In this document: positions 4,166 to 7,120 of the stretch, one piece after another | How positions within the stretch are numbered: the stretch's first letter is position 1 | Layout of the letters: every line of letters begins with the position of its first letter | Assembly: GCA_030590165.1 (NCBI GenBank) | Contig: JAUUZA010000012.1 | Location: forward strand, 1 to 17,312 | Reading direction: 5' to 3' | DNA: 17,312 nt | From: Candidatus Altarchaeota archaeon | GTDB taxonomy: Archaea; SpSt-1190 | Translations under genes and position numbers: made by a program | Notes under the pieces: generated by a model | What the model was told of the DNA's origin: nothing | Database searches by the model: none | Seen by the model: only the letters and a program-made list of their open reading frames with translations

Positions 4166-4885
4166 TTAATCTCTTAAAAGTATCTCTTCAAAAAATCCTT
4201 TATCTTCAATTTCTTTCCTTAATAATTCCATTTCATTTTTGTAATAAGGACGAATATCATTAAATCTAATATCAATATATGAAGGGGCCCTAGAGAAAAA
4301 TCCTTGTAAAATATATTTTTTAGCTCCTTTAAGTTGCTCAGCTATTTCTCTAACCATATCAAAAGTTATTAATTTTGGGGCTAGTGTCGTCCTAAATTCA
4401 TAAGGAACTTTACTTTTTTTTATGAAGTCTATGCTTTTTTTTACATCATCAAAATCTTTTTCGGAAAGTTTACAAACAAGATAATAAGACTCAAAATCCA
4501 AGGGAGCTTTAACATCCATTGCAATATAATCAATAAGTCCTTTGTCAACCAATTCCTTCAGTTTTTCAAATCGTGAACCTTGAGTATCAAGCTTAACTAA
4601 AAAACCTTTTTCCTTCACTTTTTTTACAAATTCAATAATGTCAGGTTGAAGTAATGGTTCACCCCCTAAAAGAGTAACCCCATCAACTAAACCTTTTCGA
4701 GTTTCCAAAAAAGAAAAAAAATCAGCTGTTGAAATGGGCTTAGAAAATCTATCTGGTAAAACCACATCAACATTATAACAATAACCACATCTAAAATTGC
4801 ATCCTTGAAAAAAAATTGTTGTTGAAATCTTTCCAGGGAAGTCAATCAAACTGGTTTTTATTATACTGCCTATCTTAACCTCCAT
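4166..4885 (-). CDS. nrdG: Anaerobic ribonucleotide reductase activating protein (radical SAM), NrdG-like
   Basis: A radical SAM activase that uses a 4Fe-4S cluster and S-adenosylmethionine to place a glycyl radical on class III ribonucleotide reductase. The 239 residues carry the cluster motif CX3CX2C (C29, C33, C36) and the SAM-contacting GGEP (74-77). It resembles the longer NrdG/PflA-like activases found in archaea and many anaerobes. The ATG at 4885 has an AAGGAG ribosome site that overlaps the TAA stop of the upstream glycyl-radical peptide, so the two are probably translationally coupled. It is third in the operon, after the large NrdD chain and that peptide, which is strong context for the assignment. 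Confidence 0.93.
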   Translation of the reverse strand: MEVKIGSIIKTSLIDFPGKISTTIFFQGCNFRCGYCYNVDVVLPDRFSKPISTADFFSFLETRKGLVDGVTLLGGEPLLQPDIIEFVKKVKEKGFLVKLDTQGSRFEKLKELVDKGLIDYIAMDVKAPLDFESYYLVCKLSEKDFDDVKKSIDFIKKSKVPYEFRTTLAPKLITFDMVREIAEQLKGAKKYILQGFFSRAPSYIDIRFNDIRPYYKNEMELLRKEIEDKGFFEEILLRD

Positions 4886-4898
4886 TACACTCTTCTCC

Positions 4899-5060
4899 TT
4901 AAAATTTTTTCAATACATTCAATGTTTTTTCAAATGTCTTTCGCTGACGAAATTCTTCCTGTTTACCGTCATTCCATTGACTGACCGGCCTAATATATCC
5001 AACAACCCTGCTAAAGACTTCTGTCCTTACTGGGAATTCCTTTGGGCTAAATGTTTTCAT
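4899..5060 (-). CDS. Free-standing glycyl-radical domain of class III ribonucleotide reductase (53 aa)
   Basis: This short gene encodes what is normally the extreme C-terminus of NrdD. Residues 11-40 contain RVVGYIRP, then QWNDGKQEEFRQRKTF, which matches the RVxGY...P...WN-GK-E--R pattern around the radical glycine; here that glycine is G21. The activase NrdG should abstract a hydrogen from it, and the radical should pass to the catalytic cysteine of the large chain. The ATG at 5060 has its own ribosome site (TAGGAG at 5074-5069) embedded in the NrdD stop codon, and it lies in a different frame from NrdD. The next gene, nrdG, starts 13 nt after its stop. It could be a genuine two-chain enzyme or a split caused by mutation or assembly error; the precise ribosome site favours the former. 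Confidence 0.88.
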   Translation of the reverse strand: MKTFSPKEFPVRTEVFSRVVGYIRPVSQWNDGKQEEFRQRKTFEKTLNVLKKF

Positions 5061-5068
5061 TTTTTCAT

Positions 5069-5074
5069 CTCCTA
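5069..5074 (-). promoter_or_regulatory. Shine-Dalgarno site inside the nrdD stop codon
   Basis: On the minus strand TAGGAG combines the nrdD stop (TAG, 5074-5072) with a GGAG ribosome site 8 nt before the ATG at 5060. It supports independent, coupled translation of the glycyl-radical peptide. Confidence 0.75.
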
Positions 5075-6814
5075 TATTTCAAATTTTGCAAGACCATTTA
5101 TCTTCAAAAGACCTGCCCTAACCAACTCATCTTGAGTATGTGGATAGGGACAGCGGTCATGCCTCCCGGATATGTATCCGTGAATGGGACATATACTGTA
5201 TGTTGGGGTTATTGTATAGTATGGATTTCCAAACTTTGTTATAACTTTTTTAACAAGGTCAGAAACAACATCTGATTCTGGGGATTCCCCCAACCACATG
5301 TGTAATACAGTACCTCCAGTATATTTAGTTTGTAGCTCCTCTTGGTGAGAAACCACATCAAATACGTCACCTTCATAATTAACAGGCAACCATGTTGAAT
5401 TTGTATAATAAGGATAATCAGTTCCAGCAGTTATAATATCTTTAAACTTTCGAGTATCAGCTCGTGCAAATCTATAAGTTGCTCCCTCACCGGGAGTGGC
5501 TTCTAAATTCCAAATTTGAGAAGTTTCATTCTGATAATCTTGAAGATTCTTTAACATATGGTCCATAACACGAAGTGCAAATTTTTTTGAATCTGGATCT
5601 TCAATACCTTTTCCCATAAAGTTCATTAAACCCTCATTCATACCGAGGAGTCCAATGGTGTTAAAGTGATGAGACCAATATTTATCTTCCATATCTTTTA
5701 TTGTACGAAGATAATATTTTGCGTAAGGATACAATCCTCTTTCAGTCATTTTTTCTAAGAAGTCACGTTTAACTACTAAAGCCTCTTTGGCTGTATCCAT
5801 AAGTTCATCAACTTTTTCAAAAAAGACTGTTTCATCCGGACTAGTATATCCAATACGCCCCATATTAAGAGTCACAACTCCAATTGAACCTGTAAGAGGT
5901 GCACTTGCAAAAATTCCCCCTGTTCTTTTTTTGAGTTCACGCGTATCAAGTCTCAACCTGCAACACATACTTCTAACATCATCAGGACTGAGTGTACTAT
6001 TCACAAAATTAGCAAAATAAGGAATACCATATTTTGATGTCATCTGCATAATTTTATCATTAAGGTCAGAATCCCAATCCCATTTCTTTGAAATATTATA
6101 AGTTGGTATTGGGAAAGTGAATGGTCTTCCTTTAGCATCACCTTCCATCATAACATCAACAAAAATTTTATTAAACATATCAATTTCTTCAGCATATTCA
6201 CCATATGCTTCTCCTATCGGTTTTCCGCCTATTATGGCCTGTTTATCACGTAAATCTTTTGGAACATCAATATCCATAGTAATATTAGTAAAGGGTGTTT
6301 GAAATCCAACTCGAGTTGGAACATTCATATTATAAACATAATTTTGCATAAGTTGTTTCACTTCTTTATAACCTAATTTATCATGACGAATGAAAGGTGC
6401 CATTAAAATATCAAAGTTACTAAATGCTTGTGCACCAGCAGATTCTCCTTGAAGGGTGAACATAAAATTTACTGATTGTCCTAAAGCAGCTCTCAAATGT
6501 TTAGCTGGTCTACTCTCAATTTTTCCAGAAACTCCCTTAAAACCATTCACTAATAAATCGTTCAAGTCCCATCCAACACAATAAGTCCCAAGAAAACTCA
6601 AATCGTGAATGTGAATATATCCTTCTTTGTGAAAACTTGCTGCTTTTTCAGGATAAATTTTTGAAAGCCAATATCTTTTCACTATTTCTCCAGATATAAA
6701 ATTATTCAAAGCTTGAATAGAATATGTGGTGTTTGCATTTTCTCTAATACGCCAGTCGAGTTTGTCGAGAAACCCATCTACTAACGTAATTACATCCCAC
6801 CATTCTTGTTTCAT
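5072..6814 (-). CDS. nrdD: Class III anaerobic ribonucleoside-triphosphate reductase, large chain lacking the glycyl-radical domain
   Basis: Reduces ribonucleoside triphosphates to deoxy forms without oxygen. The 580 residues carry the ten-stranded barrel. C79 (in GTYCVGWDL) and C284/C285 (in RSMCCRL) correspond to the active-site cysteines of the family. Near the end, C542-x2-H545 and C555-x3-H559 replace the usual four-cysteine zinc knuckle. The chain then stops after a short tail, with no RVxGY radical motif; that motif is in the next gene (4899-5060). There is also no N-terminal ATP-cone, so dATP shut-off of this type is not expected. The ATG follows a strong GGGGGAG ribosome site, and a TATA box lies at 6859-6867. 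The family is certain; the split is the odd point. Confidence 0.96.
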   Translation of the reverse strand: MKQEWWDVITLVDGFLDKLDWRIRENANTTYSIQALNNFISGEIVKRYWLSKIYPEKAASFHKEGYIHIHDLSFLGTYCVGWDLNDLLVNGFKGVSGKIESRPAKHLRAALGQSVNFMFTLQGESAGAQAFSNFDILMAPFIRHDKLGYKEVKQLMQNYVYNMNVPTRVGFQTPFTNITMDIDVPKDLRDKQAIIGGKPIGEAYGEYAEEIDMFNKIFVDVMMEGDAKGRPFTFPIPTYNISKKWDWDSDLNDKIMQMTSKYGIPYFANFVNSTLSPDDVRSMCCRLRLDTRELKKRTGGIFASAPLTGSIGVVTLNMGRIGYTSPDETVFFEKVDELMDTAKEALVVKRDFLEKMTERGLYPYAKYYLRTIKDMEDKYWSHHFNTIGLLGMNEGLMNFMGKGIEDPDSKKFALRVMDHMLKNLQDYQNETSQIWNLEATPGEGATYRFARADTRKFKDIITAGTDYPYYTNSTWLPVNYEGDVFDVVSHQEELQTKYTGGTVLHMWLGESPESDVVSDLVKKVITKFGNPYYTITPTYSICPIHGYISGRHDRCPYPHTQDELVRAGLLKINGLAKFEI

Positions 6815-7058: not shown

Positions 7059-7120
7059 GCGTGTTTCAAGCCAAAATAACCTCAAAAACAGAGGAATAAG
7101 ATTGAAACACTTGAAAACGC
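7059..7120. repeat. Nested inverted repeats with two mutually exclusive pairings
   Basis: GTGTTTCAA (7061-7069) pairs perfectly with TTGAAACAC (7102-7110). The same arm, extended to 7059-7070, can instead pair with 7110-7120 over 11 base pairs with one bulged G. An inner CCTC/GAGG hairpin (7080-7083 with 7091-7094) fits inside both. Two tandem, imperfect copies of the 3' arm are therefore competing for one partner. Confidence 0.6.

Follow-up and report, generated by a model that had tools for sequence, protein, structure and literature searches.

To our knowledge, the radical loop and the barrel are parts of one chain in all characterized NrdD proteins, the class III ribonucleotide reductases (RNRs). 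The single-chain enzymes of T4, Thermotoga maritima, and Prevotella copri share with the NrdD analyzed here, which is encoded in a 17,312-nt stretch of archaeal DNA (hereafter, the window), the barrel, the finger loop of the MCCR class, the beta-A cysteine, the zinc site, the RVxGY loop, and the NrdG activase. The window enzyme differs from them in having the loop on a separate gene product, in lacking the ATP-cone, and in the fourth zinc ligand, which is His. An RNR split within one operon, with the C-terminal part forming the small subunit, is found also in Pseudomonas aeruginosa, where both NrdJa and NrdJb are required in vivo. However, NrdJab is a class II, adenosylcobalamin-dependent enzyme, and the 229-aa NrdJb functions in disulfide exchange, whereas the small chain encoded in the window would carry the radical itself; moreover, the window genome gave no match to PF02867, the class I/II catalytic subunit.

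Free-standing glycyl-radical domains are known from pyruvate formate-lyase (PFL), in which GrcA/YfiD replaces the O2-cleaved end of the enzyme, and spare parts have been suggested for other glycyl-radical enzymes as well (PMC8683613). The PFL spare parts, GrcA/YfiD and Y06I of T4, resemble the small chain in that a free-standing glycyl-radical domain completes a barrel chain devoid of the loop (PMC8683613), but GrcA rescues a cleaved full-length enzyme, whereas the window genome contains no full-length NrdD and encodes the peptide inside an operon. In the phage nrdD genes that are interrupted by introns, inteins, or homing endonucleases (PMC3653736, PMC12363816), the coding sequence is likewise in pieces; these interruptions, however, are mobile elements and are often spliced, whereas the two ORFs in the window are separated by an 11-nt gap with no element inside and the break falls at the radical domain. 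Interruption by such an element was therefore rejected; Rfam likewise identified no intron in the window, its sole match there being an archaeal RNase P RNA (RF00373; 14009-14302, 103.8 bits).

The window is located in a 724-kb archaeal MAG. On its minus strand, the gene for the NrdD large chain is followed by a 53-aa ORF and then, 13 nt beyond it, by the radical-SAM activase gene nrdG (Table 1). A sequence-only reading of this DNA had held that the 580-residue NrdD ends without RVxGY and that the next gene encodes precisely this motif, with the radical glycine at residue 21, and both the ORFs and the profile matches agree with it. In particular, the large ORF stops after the zinc region, at ...CPIHGYISGRHDRCPYPHTQDELVRAGLLKINGLAKFEI, and RVxGY is absent from it; the small ORF begins with MKTFSPKEFPVRTEVFSRVVGYIRPVSQWNDGKQEEF... 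and contains the motif as RVVGY. The Pfam NRDD profile is matched at positions 1-531 by the large chain (578 bits) and at positions 533-562 by the small chain (37 bits), so that the two chains together span practically the whole model and leave a single position unmatched between them. The large chain also scores over the cut-offs of NCBIfam TIGR02487 and NF006126 (872 bits), the latter match missing the first 95 and the last 30 positions; as it starts at position 96, the chain lacks the ATP-cone. Judging from these alignments, the small chain is exactly the radical loop that is missing from the large chain; NCBIfam and PHROG contain no family for the small chain alone. The details of the junction given by the same reading hold as well: the large frame ends with TAG at 5074-5072 and the small frame has an in-frame TGA at 5081-5079, whereas the GGAG site embedded in the nrdD stop is part of an AGGAG that overlaps the TAG and precedes the small ORF's own ATG by 8 nt, and the next gene in line is indeed nrdG (189 bits against NCBIfam TIGR02495, above the family cut-off). 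Upstream of nrdD, the window contains an inverted repeat, GTGTTTCAA-32 nt-TTGAAACAC (7061-7110), for which the chance expectation is none; it was not found upstream of the nrdD genes of relatives.

Table 1. Features of the split nrdD locus (window coordinates)
Feature	Position	Strand	Basis
nrdD large chain, 580 aa; class III RNR barrel, without ATP-cone and glycyl-radical loop	5072..6814	-	ORF
Small chain, 53 aa; free-standing NrdD glycyl-radical peptide	4899..5060	-	ORF; Pfam NRDD; conservation
nrdG, 239 aa; radical-SAM activase, NrdG2 type	4166..4885	-	TIGR02495; CxxxCxxC in translation
Radical glycine codon GGA (small-chain G21)	4998..5000	-	RVVGY aligned with the NRDD C-terminus
Finger-loop C284/C285 (SMCCR), large chain	5960..5965	-	Sequence; alignment to 8p23
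C79, beta-A active-site cysteine, large chain	6578..6580	-	Invariant in 30 relatives; aligned with the CV motif of 8p23
Zinc-site ligands C542, H545, C555, H559, large chain	5138..5191	-	Invariance among relatives
Shine-Dalgarno AGGAG of the small ORF, overlapping the large-chain TAG	5069..5073	-	Sequence

Apart from the loop, the large chain retains the parts expected of the enzyme, namely, the catalytic barrel and the zinc site as well as the finger-loop and beta-A cysteines. C285 aligns with Cys416, and C79 with the beta-A cysteine, of P. copri NrdD (8p23; residue numbering according to PMC11226230). The finger loop, S-M283-C284-C285-R, belongs to the double-cysteine MCCR class, which retains the methionine (PMC9669993), and both the loop and C79 are invariant in 30 relatives. 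Of the zinc ligands, arranged as C-H-C-H, all four are invariant in four family members and the first three in 30 relatives; the fourth, His559 in the window chain, is Cys in most fused relatives. The AlphaFold2 model of the large chain (pLDDT 80, pTM 0.83) has class III RNR (NrdD) structures as all of its best PDB matches. The pair was modeled using the Micrarchaeota locus L038, where the two ORFs share a reading frame, with two TAA stops separating them, and were read through as one chain. AlphaFold2 predicts the small part with a pLDDT of about 75-90. Superposed on P. copri NrdD, the model matches from end to end over chain residues 98-735, and the match extends to the radical domain (Z 32.4; 2.6 A over 534 residues). 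The model shows that the small chain can fit the position of the normal radical loop, a result that speaks to compatibility only, not to binding, because the locus was modeled as one chain and fused homologs were present in the alignment.

Taken with the gene layout and the structural models, these features make it highly likely that the three-gene operon, nrdD-large/radical peptide/nrdG, encodes an obligate two-chain class III RNR. By homology, the small chain would dock at the C-terminal zinc region of the large chain, with its loop threaded into the barrel; NrdG would take the hydrogen from Gly21 of the small chain; and Gly21 would hand the radical to C285, whereupon nucleotide reduction would begin as in single-chain NrdD. 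These proposed steps, that is, seating, activation of Gly21, and transfer to C285, are derived from what is known of class III catalysis.

Three other genera of the family have these three genes, split in the same way; their NrdD proteins are 64-71% identical to that of the window and all terminate at the same place, followed by the small ORF and then nrdG. Thus, when gene order and fusion were checked in relatives, as the sequence-only reading had proposed, the three nearest all turned out to be split rather than fused. The small ORF is no chance reading frame: it is 74-77% identical to its equivalents in these loci (L034, L035, and L004), and, when a more distant fifth split locus is added to the comparison, 23 of the 53 residues still do not vary. 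The junctions themselves are built differently: the small ORF is in frame -1 relative to the large one in the window and L034, +1 in L035, and 0 in L004, the large stop is TAG or TAA, and the gap to the small start ranges from 11 to 49 nt. This diversity bears on the concern that the split, seen in the window on a single MAG contig, reflects an error in sequencing or assembly or marks a pseudogene in decay. Differently built junctions in independent assemblies make a shared error impossible, and the same split recurs in independent MAGs of three other genera and throughout whole clades; furthermore, both ORFs are intact and conserved and belong to the only RNR found in the genome, so that the probability of such an artifact is close to negligible.

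How widespread the split is was assessed by scanning 84,980 species genomes with the four split sequences of the family, which yielded the 80 nearest loci; 5 loci from viral contigs and more from searches of archaeal genomes brought the total to 105, and the reading frame of the radical loop was located by a script in each. The loop is in a separate downstream ORF in 55 of the 105 related loci, a fraction that is not a prevalence, given that the loci were sampled by similarity to the window protein, and in the same chain in the other 50 (41 by pattern and 9 by inspection of the C-terminus). Two loci, L037 and L127, are identical in sequence, so that the subsequent counts are based on 54 split loci. 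The split is therefore not unique to the window and extends further than the sequence-only reading supposed, its hosts including Micrarchaeota, Diapherotrites, Moran-, Buchanan-, and Shapirobacteria, Omnitrophota, and Desulfuromonas/Desulfobacteraceae MAGs. The break falls mostly in the linker between the zinc site and the radical loop. On a tree of 103 large chains, 13 changes between the split and fused states are needed, at least 8 of which are forced by well-supported branches; with 8-13 changes on the tree, splitting has been recurrent.

Several of these loci deviate from the window in their layout. Fused NrdD occurs within split clades in L067 (about 4700-4875) and L068 (about 4700-4890), the former with an internal Met close to the former junction; these could be real re-fusions or assembly indels. 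In Moranbacteria-type small chains (L057, L062, L070, L072, L074, L076, and L078), an extra CxxC...CxxC precedes the radical loop. The viral contig L114 (4782-6308) encodes an ATP-cone NrdD and a radical peptide about 1.3 kb apart, with three other small ORFs between them. A search of the phage collection with the small peptide returned two records only, both with 59-65% identity and partial coverage.

Evidence from translation signals indicates that two products are made. ATG is the start codon of the small ORF in 49 of the 54 split loci, the start being picked by the best Shine-Dalgarno match, and 43 of the small ORFs have a match of at least five bases, compared with 10.8 expected from equally many random start codons. 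In ten Omnitrophota loci, the start and stop codons share the sequence ATGA, as is usual in translationally coupled genes. For the loop region, within-group dN is 0.00-0.24, and dS is above 0.4 and mostly saturated; hence, the related small ORFs behave as coding sequences under purifying selection. A radical-SAM gene lies within 900 nt in 44 of the 54 loci.

The same data weigh against the restoration of a normal single-chain NrdD by programmed frameshifting or stop read-through. In the window, the two frames overlap by a few bases, between the TGA and TAG stops, so that a -1 shift would fuse them, but inspection of this overlap by eye revealed no correctly phased canonical slippery heptamer. 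Among relatives, the frame relation varies (0, +1, or -1), the small ORFs have their own Shine-Dalgarno sites, and, in 27 of the 54 loci, the small frame opens only past the large stop, so that no single frameshift is able to fuse the chains. Recoding of the stop codon was rejected as well: the junction stops are TAA, TAG, or TGA at different loci, so that no single recoding fits. We therefore regard frameshifting or read-through as very unlikely.

The two-chain enzyme appears to be the only RNR of its host. In the window genome, a second NrdD was sought and not found, NRDD matching these two ORFs only, and a search of four split genomes of the family, including that of the window, for the class I/II large subunit (PF02867) gave no match. 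Given these two negative searches, the split pair is probably the sole RNR; as the genomes of the family are all MAGs, 84-90% complete, the absence is suggestive rather than final. Within the family genomes seen, the split class III enzyme (G000, G001, G002, and G004) and a class I/II RNR (G003 and G005, which have no NrdD and encode the class I/II large subunit) are mutually exclusive, which suggests that one RNR was replaced by another. The lack of a full-length NrdD in the NRDD search also bears on the idea that the small peptide is a mere GrcA-like accessory of some other full-length glycyl-radical enzyme. Although free-standing radical domains are known for PFL (PMC8683613), the adjoining large chain lacks the very loop it needs and the peptide matches the C-terminus of NRDD, which, together with a search that covered NrdD among the glycyl-radical enzymes, renders a purely accessory role very improbable.

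A different possibility, raised also by the sequence-only reading, which we hold tentatively and consider on the whole doubtful, is that the small chain is exchangeable, with the 53-aa peptide alone being lost upon cleavage by O2 and replaced in the manner of GrcA/YfiD. Such exchange would add a function to the two-chain enzyme and hence does not contradict it. O2 cuts all glycyl-radical enzymes at the radical, and spare parts beyond PFL have been proposed (PMC8683613). Additional observations in this direction come from another archaeal family. In five genomes of one archaeal genus, NrdD is truncated (L174, L175, and L192-L194), ending with ...DGITR-xx or similar, before the radical glycine, and no radical loop was found within 900 nt; in 4 of the 5 genomes, a protein of about 105 aa, consisting of an N-terminal part without assignment and the loop ITRITGYMSTVGNWNKGK, is encoded elsewhere. 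G092, of the sister genus, has an intact NrdD (L173) together with a loop protein of the same type about 190 kb away. The unlinked loop protein (loci L177, L178, L179, and L181-L183) is a candidate spare part for class III RNR, and its combination with a truncated NrdD is what one would expect had a spare part turned into an obligatory component; it makes a spare-part route plausible and is a lead toward replacement rather than evidence for exchange of the window peptide. In the window, by contrast, translation of the peptide is coupled to that of the large chain; the peptide carries no additional regulatory domain, and the genome has no second copy of it. Coupling would probably yield the large and small chains in near-equal amounts, and, together with the single copy of the peptide, it points to a stoichiometric subunit over a stress-induced spare.

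The break can also fall elsewhere in the protein. In the archaeal phylum of G010, NrdD is split inside the zinc site in 11 of 16 genomes, with one CxxC on the large chain and the other CxxC, along with the loop, on the small chain; this architecture was noted at L025, L027, L029, L144-L152, and L195-L198. The zinc site, if formed in these proteins, would bridge two chains. In several of the genomes with this split, a thioredoxin/glutaredoxin domain is fused to the small chain behind its radical loop (Pfam Thioredoxin_3, 6.6e-10).

Overall, the two-chain RNR proposed by the sequence-only reading is strongly supported by the conservation of the split across genera, the small ORF's own start and Shine-Dalgarno site, the failure to find another RNR in the genome, the purifying selection on related small ORFs, and the many other split loci. 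With the radical loop on a separate ORF in over half of the related loci sampled, the enzyme is a variant of class III RNR, not a standard member of the class, rather than a new kind of enzyme. No description of a free radical peptide accompanying a split NrdD was found in the open literature, the search having covered journals outside subscription. Gene callers and RNR surveys would overlook the small chain or label the large chain as truncated.

Whether radical domains are exchanged in glycyl-radical enzymes other than PFL is a standing question that is now directly testable, because the split enzyme offers, ready-made by nature, the means to add, label, mutate, or remove the radical domain at will. 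In the organism analyzed here, an enzyme of DNA precursor synthesis, probably the only one of the cell, would bear its radical on a separate small protein, whereas the textbook places it on the catalytic chain, and this arrangement has arisen on many occasions among DPANN archaea, Patescibacteria, and Omnitrophota. Should the peptide prove exchangeable, cells would discard the cleaved peptide and reload a long-lived catalytic chain, making the peptide cofactor-like, and the repeated fission of NrdD and the unlinked radical protein would represent convergent answers to O2 damage of the only RNR.
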